Shown here one piece after another: positions 15,607 through 42,676 of a stretch of 64,000 nt of DNA (positions within the stretch are counted from its first letter, which is position 1; each line of letters begins with the position of its first letter). Source of the DNA: Glycocaulis abyssi (GTDB lineage: Bacteria > Pseudomonadota > Alphaproteobacteria > Caulobacterales > Maricaulaceae); NCBI RefSeq assembly GCF_041429775.1, contig NZ_CP163421.1:1054001-1118000 (forward strand). Reading direction: 5' to 3'. A program made the translations under genes and the position numbers. Under the pieces are notes generated by a model. That model saw only the letters and a program-made list of their open reading frames with translations, ran no database searches and was not told the DNA's origin.

Positions 15607-15720
15607 AAGCCCTCGTCCTTCGAGACGGCTTCTGACGAAGCCCCTCAGGATGAGGGCTTTGGGGTTGCTTCTCCCCTCATCCTGAGGGTGAGCGTAGCGA
15701 ACGTCTCGAAGGACGAGGGA
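15607..15720. repeat. REP-like palindromic element, copy 1
   Basis: The outer arms CCTCGTCCTTCGAGACG (15611-15627) and its exact reverse complement (15702-15718) enclose a second inverted pair, CCTCAGGATGAGG and CCTCATCCTGAGG. The whole can fold into a long cruciform or RNA hairpin. A diverged second copy is at 37068-37175. No transposase is nearby. Confidence 0.85.
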
Positions 15721-37067: not shown

Positions 37068-37175
37068 AAGCCCTCGTCCTTCGAGACGCACTACGTGCTC
37101 CTCAGGATGAGGGCTTGGGCATTCTTTTTCCTCATCCTGAGGGTGAGCGATAGCGAACATCTAGAAGGACGAGGA
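37068..37175. repeat. REP-like palindromic element, copy 2
   Basis: It has the same layout as 15607-15720. The left arm (37072-37088) is identical to copy 1, but the right arm (about 37158-37174) carries at least two changes, so the outer stem is imperfect. The inner CCTCAGGATGAGG/CCTCATCCTGAGG pair is intact. It lies in the 5' region of the MFS gene. Confidence 0.85.
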
Positions 37176-37254: not shown

Positions 37255-38535
37255 ATGAAAGACCTTGCTGATTATCCCCTGTCACAGCGCCCCTTGCGGG
37301 TGCTGGTGACCAGCTATCGCTCCCACCCGCATGTCGGCGGGCAGGGCATTTATGTGCATGAGCTGACGCGTGCGCTTAAAGCTGCCGGCTGCGAGGTGAG
37401 CGTGGCGTCCGGCCCGCCCTACCCTGAGCTGGATGCCGGCATCGAGCTTATCAAGCTGCCCTCGCTTGATCTGTTTGCCGTCGATAACGCCATGCTGGCG
37501 CTGCGCTGGCGGCATCTGGGCAGCCGGGCCGACCGCGCCGAGTGGCTCGCCCACAATACCGGCGCGTTCGGCGAGATGACGGCCTTCGCGCTGCGTCTGG
37601 AGGACTTCATCGCGCGTGAGGGCCACCGCTTTGACATCATCCACGACAACCAGACACTGGCCATGCCGATGGCGCGCATCGCGCAAACCCTGCCCGTTAT
37701 CACCACCCTGCACCACCCGATTGCGATTGATCGCGATTTCGCGGTGGCCGGCGCACATACCCGGCTTGGCAAGGCCCTGTCCTGGCGCTGGCATTCCTTC
37801 GTGAATGAGCAGGCAAAGGCCGCGCGTGCCCTCACCCATTTCATCGCCGTTTCCGATGCCGCGCGGCGCTCCTACGCCGAACGCACGGGCATGGACACGG
37901 GCGGCGTTCGCGTCGCCTATAACGGCATCGACCATGCCAGCTTCACGCCCGACCCGTCGGTAAAGCGCGAGACCGGCCTGATCGTCGCCAGCGCCAGCGC
38001 GGATGTGCCCATCAAGGGGCTGGACGTGCTGATCGCGGCGCTGGCCCGCCTCAAAGACAGCCATCCGGCTGCCCGCCTGACCGTCATCGGCCAGCTGCGC
38101 GAGGGACCGACAAAACGCATGCTGGGGCGTACTGGCCTGTCTGACCGGGTGAATTTCGTATCCGGTCTGACACGCGAAGAGATCGCAGACCTGCACCGGC
38201 GCGCCACCGTCTTCGTGTCGGCTTCACGCTTTGAAGGCTTTGGCTTTCCCCCTGCCGAGGCGATGGCCTGCGGCGCGCCGGTTATCGTATCGGATGGCGG
38301 CGCGCTGCCCGAAGTTGCCGGAGATGCCGGGCTGGTCACGCCGGTCGGCGATGACGAGGCGCTGGCCGCAGCGATTGCCCGCGTGCTGGACGACGAAAGC
38401 CTGCGCGCTGCCATGAGCCGGGCCGGGCTGAACCGGGTACGCACCCTCTTCCGCTGGGATCTGCATGCAGGGCTTTCCATCGGACTTTATCGCGATGTGC
38501 TGGGCCTCGCCGACGCCGGAGTGATTGCGGCATGA
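37255..38535 (+). CDS. Glycosyltransferase family 4
   Basis: A 426-residue GT-B enzyme. The acceptor-side loop YRSHPHVGGQGIYVHELTRAL and the donor-side motif SRFEGFGFPPAEAMACGAPVIVSDGGALPEV (with E-x7-E) are present. It probably transfers a sugar from a nucleotide donor to a lipid or small-molecule acceptor, with retention of stereochemistry. It starts an overlapped three-gene set (GT4, methyltransferase, toroid protein); donor and acceptor unknown. Confidence 0.88.
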   Translation: MKDLADYPLSQRPLRVLVTSYRSHPHVGGQGIYVHELTRALKAAGCEVSVASGPPYPELDAGIELIKLPSLDLFAVDNAMLALRWRHLGSRADRAEWLAHNTGAFGEMTAFALRLEDFIAREGHRFDIIHDNQTLAMPMARIAQTLPVITTLHHPIAIDRDFAVAGAHTRLGKALSWRWHSFVNEQAKAARALTHFIAVSDAARRSYAERTGMDTGGVRVAYNGIDHASFTPDPSVKRETGLIVASASADVPIKGLDVLIAALARLKDSHPAARLTVIGQLREGPTKRMLGRTGLSDRVNFVSGLTREEIADLHRRATVFVSASRFEGFGFPPAEAMACGAPVIVSDGGALPEVAGDAGLVTPVGDDEALAAAIARVLDDESLRAAMSRAGLNRVRTLFRWDLHAGLSIGLYRDVLGLADAGVIAA

Positions 38536-39251
38536 TGACGATTGATCCTGATCGGCTGGAGCTTGCCGACGGCCAGCGCGTGCTGGACCTGGGCTGCGGG
38601 CGCGGGCGCCATCTGCACGCGCTTTACTGGCATGAACGCGCGCTGGATGTGACGGGGCTGGACCTCGACTTTGCCGATCTGGGTGCGGCGATTGACGGCT
38701 TTTTCGAGCTGCCTCCGCCGCCCGAAACCCCTCCGCGTACCGCCGTATTCACGGTCGGCGATGCAGGCCGCCTGCCTTTTGCCGATGCCAGCTTTGATGC
38801 CGTCATCTGCTCTGAGGTTCTCGAACACCTTCCCGATGTGCCACTGGCGCTGAGCGAGATCGACCGGGTTCTCAAACCCGGCGGCAAGTTTGCGCTGTCC
38901 GTGCCGCGCTACTGGCCGGAAAAGATCTGCTGGATGCTGTCTGAGGCATACCACAACACGCCGGGCGGTCATGTGCGCATCTTCAAGGATGGCGCGCTAC
39001 GCAAACAGGTTGAGGCGCTCGGCTATTCCTTCCGCCACCGCCACTGGGTACACGCCCTGCACAGCCCCTACTGGTGGCTGCAATGCGCGCTGTGGGAGCG
39101 GCGCGAGCAGAGCGGCATGGTGGCCGCCTACCGCAAAATGCTCGAATGGGATTTGCTGTCTGCGCCGCGCCTGACGCGCTGGAGCGAGAAGGCCCTCAAC
39201 CCGCTTCTGGGCAAATCCGTTGCCCTCTATTTCGACAAGGCCCGCCCATGA
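38532..39251 (+). CDS. Class I SAM methyltransferase
   Basis: A 239-residue Rossmann methyltransferase. SAM motif I is VLDLGCGRGRHL, motif II lies at FTVGDAGRLPFADASFD, and CSEVLEHLPD is the post-I acidic region. It overlaps the glycosyltransferase and the following gene by 4 nt each, so the three are made together. An O-methyltransferase role on the glycosylated product is plausible but inferred. Confidence 0.87.
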   Translation: MMTIDPDRLELADGQRVLDLGCGRGRHLHALYWHERALDVTGLDLDFADLGAAIDGFFELPPPPETPPRTAVFTVGDAGRLPFADASFDAVICSEVLEHLPDVPLALSEIDRVLKPGGKFALSVPRYWPEKICWMLSEAYHNTPGGHVRIFKDGALRKQVEALGYSFRHRHWVHALHSPYWWLQCALWERREQSGMVAAYRKMLEWDLLSAPRLTRWSEKALNPLLGKSVALYFDKARP

Positions 39252-40351
39252 GCCCGCGATCCGTCATAACCGGGCTTGATATCCGCGCCTGCGCCGACCG
39301 CATCGAAGCGCTGCAGCAGCGCGACGGCGCTATTCCGTGGGTGGAGACCGGCGTCTGGGACCCGTGGAACCATGGCGAGAGCGCGATGGGCCTGGCGGTC
39401 GCCGGACGGGTGGAAGGCGTGCATCTCGCGCTGGACGCGCTGGCAGCCCGGCAGGAAGCCGATGGCGGCTGGACGGGCGAGCTGGGTGCGGGCATCCCCA
39501 TGGACGAGGCAGGCGAGCGCATTGCGCCCCCGTCCGTGCCGGTGACCGCGCGCGACACCAATTTTGCCGGCTATGCCGCCGTGACCGTTTTGCGTTGCGC
39601 GCTGGCGCTGGACGAGCCGCGCCTCATCGCGCGCTACTTCCCCATGGTCGCACGCGCGCTGGATTTCGTGATGAATTTGCAGACCGCTCATGGCGATGTG
39701 GTCTGGCGCGCGCCCGATATCAACCAGCCCTTGGAAGACGTGGACGCGCTGCGGGCGGGCAATTCCTCCCTGTTCAAGAGCTTTGAATGCGGCCTGCGCA
39801 TGGCCGAAATCCTTGAAAAGCCGCGCACCGACTGGGCGCGCAGCCGCGCTGCCATTGCCCGCGCCCTGACAGCTATGCCCGAACGCTTTGACCGCAAGGG
39901 CATCGACCGCTCTACCTACGCGATGGACTGGTACTATCCGGTACTCACCGGCGTGATGACCGGAGCAGAAGCCCGCGCACGTCTGGATGAGGGCTGGGAC
40001 ACATTCGTCGTCGCCGATCTGGGCTGCCGCTGCGTCACCGGCGAGCCGTGGGTGACAGCGGCTGAAACCGCCGAGCTGGCTCTGGCCTGCCTGAGTGCGG
40101 GGCGGCGCGATGCGGCGCGGACACTGGTCAATGAGCTGGCGCCGCTGGCGGCCCCCGATGGCGGCTACTGGATGGGCTGGCAGTACGAGATTGGCGATGT
40201 CTGGCCCAAGGAGCGCCCGTCATGGACCGCTGGCGCGATCATTCTCGCTGCCGACGCGCTGGACGCTCTGTCACCGGGTTCAGACCTGCTGGTGCGCCAT
40301 GCCCGCGCGGACGCGTGGACTACAGACGGCGCAGAAATTCGAGCGAATTGA
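39248..40351 (+). CDS. Alpha/alpha-toroid (prenyltransferase/cyclase-like) protein
   Basis: A 367-residue protein with repeated DGGW/DGGYW-type turns (RQEADGGWTGELG, APDGGYWMGWQYE) between helical pairs, like the QW repeats of squalene cyclases and prenyltransferases. I see no DxDD or DDxxD acid motif that would prove terpene chemistry. The long central helix pairs fit a six-hairpin barrel, so a glycosidase-type toroid is an alternative. It overlaps the methyltransferase by 4 nt, and its last 32 nt overlap the convergent methyltransferase. Function unknown. Confidence 0.7.
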   Translation: MSPRSVITGLDIRACADRIEALQQRDGAIPWVETGVWDPWNHGESAMGLAVAGRVEGVHLALDALAARQEADGGWTGELGAGIPMDEAGERIAPPSVPVTARDTNFAGYAAVTVLRCALALDEPRLIARYFPMVARALDFVMNLQTAHGDVVWRAPDINQPLEDVDALRAGNSSLFKSFECGLRMAEILEKPRTDWARSRAAIARALTAMPERFDRKGIDRSTYAMDWYYPVLTGVMTGAEARARLDEGWDTFVVADLGCRCVTGEPWVTAAETAELALACLSAGRRDAARTLVNELAPLAAPDGGYWMGWQYEIGDVWPKERPSWTAGAIILAADALDALSPGSDLLVRHARADAWTTDGAEIRAN

Positions 40352-40937
40352 TCCGCTCCAGCGGCTCAAACAGGCCCGACGCCACGGCCAGCTTCCAGAT
40401 TTCATAGGGCGGCCTGCCACCATCGGCAGGATCGGGAAAGACATCATGGATGGCCAGTATCCCGCCGCGCGCCACCTGGCCCGCCCAGGCGCGATAATCG
40501 GCCAGCGCCGTATCCATTGCATGCCCGCCATCGATGAACACCATGGCCAGCGGCGTGGCCCAGTTCGCGCCTATGATGGCTGACGGGCCCACTAGCGCGA
40601 TGACCGTCTGCTCCAGCCCTGCCAGCGCGATCGAGCGGCGAAAAGCAGGCAGCGTGTCCACCCGGCCAAGTTCACCGTCGAAATGGGCCGGATCGTGATA
40701 GCCCTCGCCCGGCTGGTGCTCCTCAGACCCGCGATGATGGTCGAGCGCGTACACAATGCGTCCGGTCTCTCTCGCGGCCTGACCCAGCCACACGCTGGAC
40801 CGCCCGCACCACGACCCGATTTCCAGAACAGGCCCGGAAACGTCTAGCGCACGCACATGGCGCGCCAGCGCCTCGCCTTCTTCGCGCGCGAGAAAGCCTT
40901 GTACGGATTCAGGATCAAAGCGGGGCGGCTTGCTCAA
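40320..40937 (-). CDS. Class I SAM methyltransferase (CmcI/TylF-like)
   Basis: A 205-residue methyltransferase with the SAM loop VLEIGSWCGRSSVWL and the conserved FIDGGHAMDTALADYRAW segment of the Methyltransf_24 group. Related enzymes O-methylate sugars or antibiotics. It faces the three-gene glycosyltransferase set, with a 32-nt tail overlap, and its start is 7 nt after the lipoprotein gene. It probably belongs to the same pathway. Confidence 0.8.
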   Translation of the reverse strand: MSKPPRFDPESVQGFLAREEGEALARHVRALDVSGPVLEIGSWCGRSSVWLGQAARETGRIVYALDHHRGSEEHQPGEGYHDPAHFDGELGRVDTLPAFRRSIALAGLEQTVIALVGPSAIIGANWATPLAMVFIDGGHAMDTALADYRAWAGQVARGGILAIHDVFPDPADGGRPPYEIWKLAVASGLFEPLERINSLEFLRRL

Positions 40938-40944
40938 GACTGGA

Positions 40945-41580
40945 TCAGCCGATCAGGGCGTTGCTCGCCGCCCAGCGGCGGTCAGCCAGCGCATCGGCAG
41001 CCCCGACAAGCTCTGTGATGGCGCCGTCCAGCCGCGTGAGCGCCTCGCTCACCGTTACCCGCTGATTGGAGGTCAGGCCGGCACGCTCATCGACCGATAC
41101 GGCCTGAAAGAAGGTGCGCGCGCGCCGGGCCGACGCAAGGACGGTCTCCACCGATGCAATATCCCGCACCAGCAAGTTTTCGGGCAGCGGCGTGCTGGTG
41201 CTGGCCAGCACAATGGCCGCCTGGGACACATCATCAACAAGATCACTGGCCAGAACGATGTCACCAGCCAGATAGGATGCAAGCTCATCGCCAGCCTGGC
41301 TGATATAGTCGCCTATGGCATCGCCGCGTTCAGGCGCGCCGCCGACAAGGCGGCCCAGCAGCCCGCGGGCCGAACCGTCACCGCCCAGCGTCCACCCGCC
41401 AGCTTCTTCCTGGCGCATGCGGAAGGCCGCGATAGCGGTCCGCAAATCTTCCTGGGCGCTGACGGGCATTTCAGATTGCGGGCGCGCCGCGAGGTCTACG
41501 GGCTGGCTGACGCATGCCGTCAAAAGCATCGCGCCTGCCATGGCGATCAACAATCCACCTAGCCTACGCGTTGCTGTCAC
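40945..41580 (-). CDS. Predicted lipoprotein, helical
   Basis: A 211-residue product from a GTG start (GGGGGCC just upstream) giving the signal VTATRRLGGLLIAMAGAMLLTAC with lipobox LTAC. The mature part is alpha-helical, with no recognised domain. Longer starts at 41649 or 41712 would put a 40-65-residue extension before the signal and are less likely. It is cotranscribed with the CmcI-like methyltransferase. Function unknown. Confidence 0.62.
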   Translation of the reverse strand: MTATRRLGGLLIAMAGAMLLTACVSQPVDLAARPQSEMPVSAQEDLRTAIAAFRMRQEEAGGWTLGGDGSARGLLGRLVGGAPERGDAIGDYISQAGDELASYLAGDIVLASDLVDDVSQAAIVLASTSTPLPENLLVRDIASVETVLASARRARTFFQAVSVDERAGLTSNQRVTVSEALTRLDGAITELVGAADALADRRWAASNALIG

Positions 41581-41704
41581 AAGGCCCCCGGCCAGTAGCT
41601 GTGCTGCGATACACGGGCGTATCGCTTCCGCATTCGAATAAAACCTCATAGTGTTCCGATACTCAAAGCTAAATCGCATCCCCGACTGTTTATAGGGCCG
41701 CCCA

Positions 41705-42676
41705 ATGGACACTTTGCGCAGACCAGAGAGGATCGGCCTGTACCCTCTGATTGAGCCCTATCGCACCGGCATGATGGATGTCGGCGAAGGCCATAGCGTC
41801 TACTATGAAGAATGCGGGCGCGCCGATGGCGTTCCAATTGTTGCGCTGCACGGCGGACCGGGCGGCGGAGCAGCGCCCTCCATGCGCCGCTTTTTTGACC
41901 CCCATGTCTATCGCATCATTATTTTCGACCAGCGCGGATGCGGGCGGTCCAGACCCTTCTCCGATACACGCACCAACGATACGCACCGGCTGGTTGCGGA
42001 CATGGAAACCATCCGCACAGCGCTTGGCGTGGAGCGCTGGATCGTTTTTGGCGGTTCCTGGGGCGCTACCCTGTCACTGGCCTATGCGCGCGCCTGCCCT
42101 GAGCGCGTGATGGGCCTCATCCTGCGCGGCGTGTTCGGCTGCACCCGGGCAGAACTCGACTGGTTCTACCGCAACGGCGCCAACCAGATTTTCCCCGATG
42201 CCTGGCAGGCGCTCACCGGCCGCCTCACACCGGACGAGCGCGAGAATGTCCTTCTGTCCTATCACGCACGCCTGCAGCTTGATGATCCCGACGCCCGCCA
42301 TGAAGACGCGCTGGCATGGGCCCAATGGGAGAATGCCCTCATCAGCCTGTTGCCCGAAGGCGATGGCCCAGCCCCCGACCCGCGCCGCGCCGATGCGCTG
42401 GCACGGATGGAAACCCACTATTTCGTCAATAACGGCTTTCTGGAACGCGATGGCGTGCTTCTGGACGACACGGCGCACCTGACCGGCATTCCCGGAATCA
42501 TCGTTCAGGGCCGTTATGACATGGTGACGCCCGCGCGCACCGCCTGGCAGCTTCAGCGCAACTGGACATCAGCTCAGCTGCACATCATTCCCGACGCTGG
42601 CCATGCCGCAGGCGAGCCGGGCATTGTCGATGCGCTGGTGCGCGCGACCGACCGGTTCGCGGCAAAGCTGGCATAG
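41705..42676 (+). CDS. pip: Proline iminopeptidase
   Basis: A 323-residue alpha/beta hydrolase that releases N-terminal proline. The family signatures ALHGGPGGG, FDQRGCGRS and the nucleophile GGSWGATLSLAY are present, with a late catalytic region (GRYDMVTPART and IPDAGHAAGEPG). It is divergent from the lipoprotein gene; TTTATA lies close upstream and may be a -10 element. Confidence 0.93.
   Translation: MDTLRRPERIGLYPLIEPYRTGMMDVGEGHSVYYEECGRADGVPIVALHGGPGGGAAPSMRRFFDPHVYRIIIFDQRGCGRSRPFSDTRTNDTHRLVADMETIRTALGVERWIVFGGSWGATLSLAYARACPERVMGLILRGVFGCTRAELDWFYRNGANQIFPDAWQALTGRLTPDERENVLLSYHARLQLDDPDARHEDALAWAQWENALISLLPEGDGPAPDPRRADALARMETHYFVNNGFLERDGVLLDDTAHLTGIPGIIVQGRYDMVTPARTAWQLQRNWTSAQLHIIPDAGHAAGEPGIVDALVRATDRFAAKLA

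Follow-up and report, generated by a model that had tools for sequence, protein, structure and literature searches.

A gene set resembling the mycobacterial methylmannose polysaccharide cluster in Glycocaulis abyssi and other Alphaproteobacteria

Nontuberculous mycobacteria carry a cluster for methylmannose polysaccharide (MMP) that consists of MeT1, MmpH, pMeT3 and ManT and has been characterized in Mycolicibacterium hassiacum (MHAS_04402-04405; PMC9883506). A second mycobacterial polymer, the 6-O-methylglucose lipopolysaccharide (MGLP), is also a cytoplasmic polymethylated polysaccharide and proposed acyl-chain binder, but it contains another sugar and its synthesis is initiated by glucosyl-3-phosphoglycerate synthase (PMC2674218). 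Both polymers bind acyl chains and influence fatty acid synthase I (FAS-I) in vitro, on which ground MMPs have been proposed as regulators of fatty acid synthesis, although it is unclear whether these effects reflect what happens in cells (PMC2674218). The survey in PMC9883506 covered actinobacteria only, and the word Proteobacteria is absent from its main text; among the open-licence papers listed by our literature search, judged by title and abstract opening, none reports the cluster in Proteobacteria. Here we analyze a locus of the alphaproteobacterium Glycocaulis abyssi that lies in a 64,000-nucleotide stretch of contig NZ_CP163421.1 (the window) within a genome of 3.05 Mb on two contigs. 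The window holds homologs of all four kinds of gene, in an order that equals that of the M. hassiacum locus tags when judged from the tags alone, without strands; the M. smegmatis tags give another order (MmpH 6481, MeT1 6482, pMeT3 6483, ManT 6484; PMC9883506). Based on this homology, we propose that the locus is probably a complete MMP biosynthesis and recycling cluster that would work as it does in mycobacteria. An earlier sequence-only reading had predicted a pathway that glycosylates and methylates, and in this it was right. That reading also saw no named pathway with this layout and suggested an undescribed system acting on a small molecule or lipid; yet a named pathway exists, because the MMP cluster characterized in M. 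hassiacum has this layout (PMC9883506). Given that precedent, the substrate is most likely a polysaccharide and the alpha/alpha-toroid protein encoded at the locus is most likely a glycoside hydrolase of the MmpH type, not a terpene cyclase.

The toroid protein matched no family in Pfam or NCBIfam at E 0.001, and its sole sequence match among solved structures at E 1 is MmpH. A terpene or squalene cyclase or prenyltransferase was rejected on these searches, which upholds the doubt about a terpene cyclase that had already been voiced from the sequence. The predicted structure is mainly helical, with a mean predicted local distance difference test (pLDDT) score of 90.5, and its fold matches (alpha/alpha)-barrel glycosidases in structural alignment with VIA-align, confirming the toroid fold. 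Among the structural matches are (alpha/alpha)6 glycosidases and phosphorylases that have the same barrel as MmpH, for example glucodextranase and the GH63 mannosylglycerate hydrolase. The window protein has the MmpH fold and most of its catalytic residues in common with the mycobacterial enzyme: nine of the 11 positions named in the structure paper are identical, and the other two are Asp50, which is Asn in the window (residue 41, 39368-39370), and Thr163, which is Ala.

In M. hassiacum, mutation of MmpH Asp47, Asp50 or Glu262 abolishes or strongly lowers activity, the effect of Asp50Ala being drastic, and the catalytic acid was left undecided between Asp47 and Asp50 (PMC9883506). The Fig. 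2 legend of that paper prints Glu256Ala where the text has Glu262; in our alignment a glutamate sits at position 262. Asp47, Glu262 and Glu265 are present in 91/91 distinct MmpH proteins and in 33/33 rows drawn from the class, the phylum and the actinobacterium Nonomuraea gerenzanensis (these two sets are not disjoint and have at least the Nonomuraea row in common). Position 50 is Asn in 88 of the 91 and 30 of the 33, Nonomuraea included, with Asp in five loci (L117, L137, L207, L213 and L214) and Cys in one (L139). Because position 50 varies between Asp and Asn in nature while Asp47 is invariant, the alignment favors Asp47 rather than Asp50 as the catalytic acid, if these enzymes are active.

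The ManT homolog has its best solved-structure match in 7qsg (E 5.8e-69; runner-up 1.6e-21), which is the structure of ManT (PMC9883506), and is 36.9% identical to the M. hassiacum enzyme over 412 columns. Seven of the nine ManT positions named in that paper are identical in the window, the exceptions being Asp293 (Arg) and Leu317 (Phe); the equivalents of His142, Lys240, Glu313 and Glu321 are retained. Mutating Lys240, Glu313 or Glu321 lowers or abolishes ManT activity (PMC9883506). Glu313 and Glu321 occur in all 89 ManT proteins and Lys240 in 88 of them, with one gap, and all three residues are retained in 33/33 of the class, phylum and Nonomuraea loci. Asp293 has been placed near the guanine of GDP-mannose (PMC9883506). 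The position is variable, with Asp in 8/89 proteins and in 17/33 of the class, phylum and Nonomuraea set, so that the idea of D293R as a sign of a donor other than mannose is weakened.

For MeT1, the window protein matches solved structures 6g7d, 6g80 and 6h40 (E 1.9e-53; runner-up 0.0024) and shows 46% identity over 193 columns. We take 6g7d, deposited under the name 'Methyltransferase domain protein', to be MeT1. This entry is not named in PMC9883506. In one other genome (G164, contig C70:197987-198579), the MeT1 match is split into two parts that overlap and lie in different frames, indicating either a disrupted gene or an error in the sequence. The remaining methyltransferase belongs to Methyltransf_11 by Pfam, and a search of solved structures found no specific relative of it. 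It sits between ManT and MmpH, as does MHAS_04403, and the Nonomuraea gene in that slot is 44% identical; from this position we assign it as the putative pMeT3.

The coordinates of the locus are given in Table 1. As the sequence-only reading had described, three plus-strand genes overlap by 4 nt each, sharing ATGA at 38532-38535 (ManT/pMeT3) and 39248-39251 (pMeT3/MmpH), and a CmcI-like methyltransferase, now the MeT1 homolog, lies on the opposite strand. We add that the MeT1 and MmpH genes are convergent and overlap by 32 nt at their 3' ends. In all four proteins the hydrophobic windows stay at or below 1.6, which fits a cytosolic product.

Table 1. Features of the putative MMP locus (window positions).
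Feature	Coordinates	Strand	Length	Basis and remarks
ManT homolog, GT4 alpha-(1->4)-mannosyltransferase type	37255-38535	+	426 aa	solved-structure match and Pfam GT4
pMeT3, putative S-adenosylmethionine (SAM)-dependent 3-O-methyltransferase	38532-39251	+	239 aa	Methyltransf_11 and position
MmpH homolog, methylmannose polysaccharide endomannosidase type	39248-40351	+	367 aa	sequence and fold match
MeT1 homolog, 1-O-methyltransferase type	40320-40937	-	205 aa	convergent; Methyltransf_24 and solved-structure match
Lipoprotein-like open reading frame (ORF)	40945-41712	-		LLTAC motif; adjoins MeT1

The association of ManT, pMeT3, MmpH and MeT1 is beyond chance, because strong MmpH and strong MeT1 matches fall in identical sets of genomes in two samples. 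In the order, MmpH matches were found in 29/150 genomes and MeT1 matches in 36/150; 29 of the MeT1 matches reach E 1e-62 or better and count as strong, and seven are weak (3e-13 to 8e-4). In the class, 35/337 genomes have MmpH matches (31 strong, four weak at 2.5e-4 to 6.5e-4) and 46/337 have MeT1 matches (31 strong at E 1.4e-39 or better, 15 weaker at 1.9e-18 at best). Within the window's own family, all nine genomes without MmpH are also without MeT1. The genes are thus conserved together; we computed no probability for this co-occurrence, as shared ancestry would inflate any figure. The order contributed 30 loci (29 genomes), and in 29 of these loci the four genes have a single layout, with flanks in common only within the window's family; the layout also holds in 33/33 loci comprising 30 from the class, both loci outside it and Nonomuraea. 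When the 30 order loci, 80 loci from a genome collection and the Nonomuraea locus are pooled (111 loci, some genomes being present twice), 103 have the full layout. MeT1 is missing at L061, L082, L106, L116, L131 and L132, ManT and MeT1 at L121, and ManT at L134, some of these being at contig ends; in four of four whole-genome searches of genomes without MeT1 at the locus, MeT1 was found elsewhere in the genome.

A few loci depart from this arrangement in other ways. Unrelated genes separate MmpH and MeT1 in L065, L124 and L146. In Glycocaulis profundi (L065:7230-9923) the insertion is an 897-aa lipoprotein-like protein, and in Phenylobacterium aquaticum (L124:7308-9640) it consists of MFS-like and membrane sugar-phosphate-transferase-like genes, all named by eye. 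L146 is the Nonomuraea gerenzanensis locus, which resembles the window in its strands (ManT, pMeT3 and MmpH plus, MeT1 minus, convergent) and in the Asn of its MmpH, but has about 1.2 kb and another ORF between MmpH and MeT1. One genome (G140) has two complete four-gene clusters, L054 and L059, on different contigs.

Beyond the order and class, matches were found in 6/397 genomes of a phylum sample, five of them strong (including the window's own genome and two order genomes already counted) and one weak (5.1e-4). The genome-collection scan gave at least 560 confirmed loci, and among the best 80 of these, 79 are from Pseudomonadota and one is from a metagenome-assembled genome (MAG) of Deltaproteobacteria (L099), by title or taxonomy; the closest named MmpH relative in the same best 80 is that of Glycocaulis albus (95%). 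An unrooted tree built from 108 MmpH rows is largely in taxonomic order inside Alphaproteobacteria, with exceptions such as the two rows of f80 that stand apart, and its two rows from actinobacteria cluster with L117, L137 and L213 (99/94). Because the tree largely follows taxonomy there, it suggests, for an unrooted tree with only two actinobacterial rows, that the cluster may have been long resident in Alphaproteobacteria, with losses. A recent transfer from mycobacteria was considered and set aside on the same largely taxonomic order; lacking an outgroup and having only two rows from actinobacteria, the tree shows neither direction nor root. The MmpH of L099, which lies on a 3.7-kb contig, is nested in Hyphomonadaceae, indicating transfer or bin contamination.

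By homology to the mycobacterial enzymes, the proteins of this locus would act in a cycle. The substrate of MmpH would be mature MMP in the cytoplasm, a short polymer of alpha-(1->4)-linked 3-O-methylmannose; its cleavage would give oligomer primers, which ManT would extend using GDP-mannose. The putative pMeT3 would methylate O-3 of the newly added mannoses, and MeT1 would add a 1-O-methyl cap at the free reducing end, such that one chain seeds two. The product, the sugar donor, the role of pMeT3 and a physiological role in long acyl-chain sequestration or cold adaptation are what we infer from this comparison. Several observations weigh against it. The compared enzymes are only 36-46% identical to those of M. 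hassiacum, and contact residues differ in the window, namely Asp50 and Thr163 of MmpH and Asp293 and Leu317 of ManT; in M. hassiacum, Asp50Ala drastically lowers MmpH activity. For pMeT3 the role is unproven in mycobacteria as well, and the window gene is assigned to it by position. A mannose-1-phosphate guanylyltransferase-like gene in the genome matches the guanylyltransferase part of the two-domain model TIGR01479 (positions 1-345 of 467), and its 335.8 bits fall below the curated cut-off of 372.95. Finally, the literature search found no MMP product or activity from any proteobacterium.

Some of these observations would also be expected if the same enzyme cycle yielded a polymethylated polysaccharide that is related to MMP but departs from it in hexose donor, linkage or decoration. 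Variation is on record, given that Streptomyces griseus makes an acetylated MMP (PMC9883506, legend), and the variable ManT position 293, the prevalence of Asn at MmpH position 50 and the moderate identity to characterized enzymes all point this way. We nevertheless consider this unlikely: apart from a single gap, all rows retain MmpH Asp47 and Glu262 and ManT Lys240, Glu313 and Glu321, an actinobacterium likewise has Asn at MmpH position 50, and a gene like those for GDP-mannose synthesis is present. A very improbable alternative is that the cluster serves to build or modify a glycan of the cell envelope, for instance an O-antigen; a precedent comes from the alphaproteobacterium Oligotropha carboxidovorans. 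The O-antigen of that species is a homopolymer of 3-O-methylmannose, but is alpha-(1->2) linked (PMC9883506, introduction). An ABC-transporter ATPase family occurs in 12/42 neighborhoods of the cluster, though MlaF of the window's family is part of this count. Against the envelope reading, no other gene family lies near the unit in more than 13/42 loci, strongly hydrophobic segments are absent from all four proteins, and neither a 1-O-methyl cap at the reducing end nor an endohydrolase inside the cell suits a lipid-linked glycan. The small-molecule or lipid pathway of the sequence-only reading has the least to recommend it and we regard it as hardly credible. Its GT4 and methyltransferase families are indeed present and serve many such pathways, but the best matches are specifically to MMP enzymes, the four-gene layout is identical to that of MMP clusters and no other gene family recurs widely nearby. 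Synthesis and recycling of MMP itself is therefore the reading that we prefer.

Outside the four genes, the neighborhood of the unit changes between lineages. In the 21 loci of the window's own family, nearby genes encode MlaF (19), MlaE (19), an MFS protein (18), proline iminopeptidase (20) and the lipoprotein (8). Each of these is found in 0/9 loci of families f2 and f3, and they are sparse in the 30 class loci (MlaF-like 10, mostly at 26-34% identity; MlaE 1; MFS 3; proline iminopeptidase 3; lipoprotein 0); all five were rejected as members of the unit. The lipoprotein of the sequence-only reading does exist as a minus-strand ORF, but its place in the set does not stand: it lies beside the four genes in 7/21 own-family loci at E 1e-8 and 8/21 at E 1e-6. 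At the stricter threshold its identity is 70-82% in the two other genomes of group g1 and 29-38% in another four genomes of the family; E 1e-6 adds one more. The most recurrent neighbor after the four genes is an alpha/beta hydrolase, epoxide-hydrolase-like by eye, in 13/42 loci (L181, L185, L189 and ten others), which may be plain local synteny. These neighbor counts are lower bounds, since the ORF caller recovered the four genes themselves in 40, 37, 37 and 32 of the 42 loci owing to longer antisense frames. We also note paired palindromic copies of CCTCATCCTGAGG at 15643-15687 and 37100-37142, four matches as against a mean of 0.07 in 100 shuffles. The second pair sits between the MFS gene and ManT, and the element looks like a dispersed intergenic repeat.

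A gene set for the synthesis and recycling of a methylated mannose chain was already known from mycobacteria; here an MMP-type gene set is found in Gram-negative alphaproteobacteria. These hosts appear to lack FAS-I: the FAS-I marker PF08354 was found in 0/61 cluster-bearing Pseudomonadota genomes, the same search finding it in one of 14 controls (Corynebacterium glutamicum), and the genome to which the window belongs encodes FabF of fatty acid synthase II (FAS-II). Because the marker is absent from all 61, control of FAS-I cannot be the role of the cluster in these hosts, and a conserved MMP set without it, if it makes MMP, would remove FAS-I control as a general explanation. More broadly, it is possible, if somewhat short of an even bet, that MMP, instead of being peculiar to mycobacteria and bound to FAS-I, is an old and widespread bacterial system, with the mycobacterial version as one branch and with much of its diversity in Alphaproteobacteria, where inheritance would largely follow the lineage; its common role would then have to be one shared by cells that have FAS-II only, such as acyl-chain buffering or cold protection. 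The cluster gives cultivated environmental hosts, among them Glycocaulis albus and Maricaulis maris, in which the phenotypes of gene deletions can be sought.

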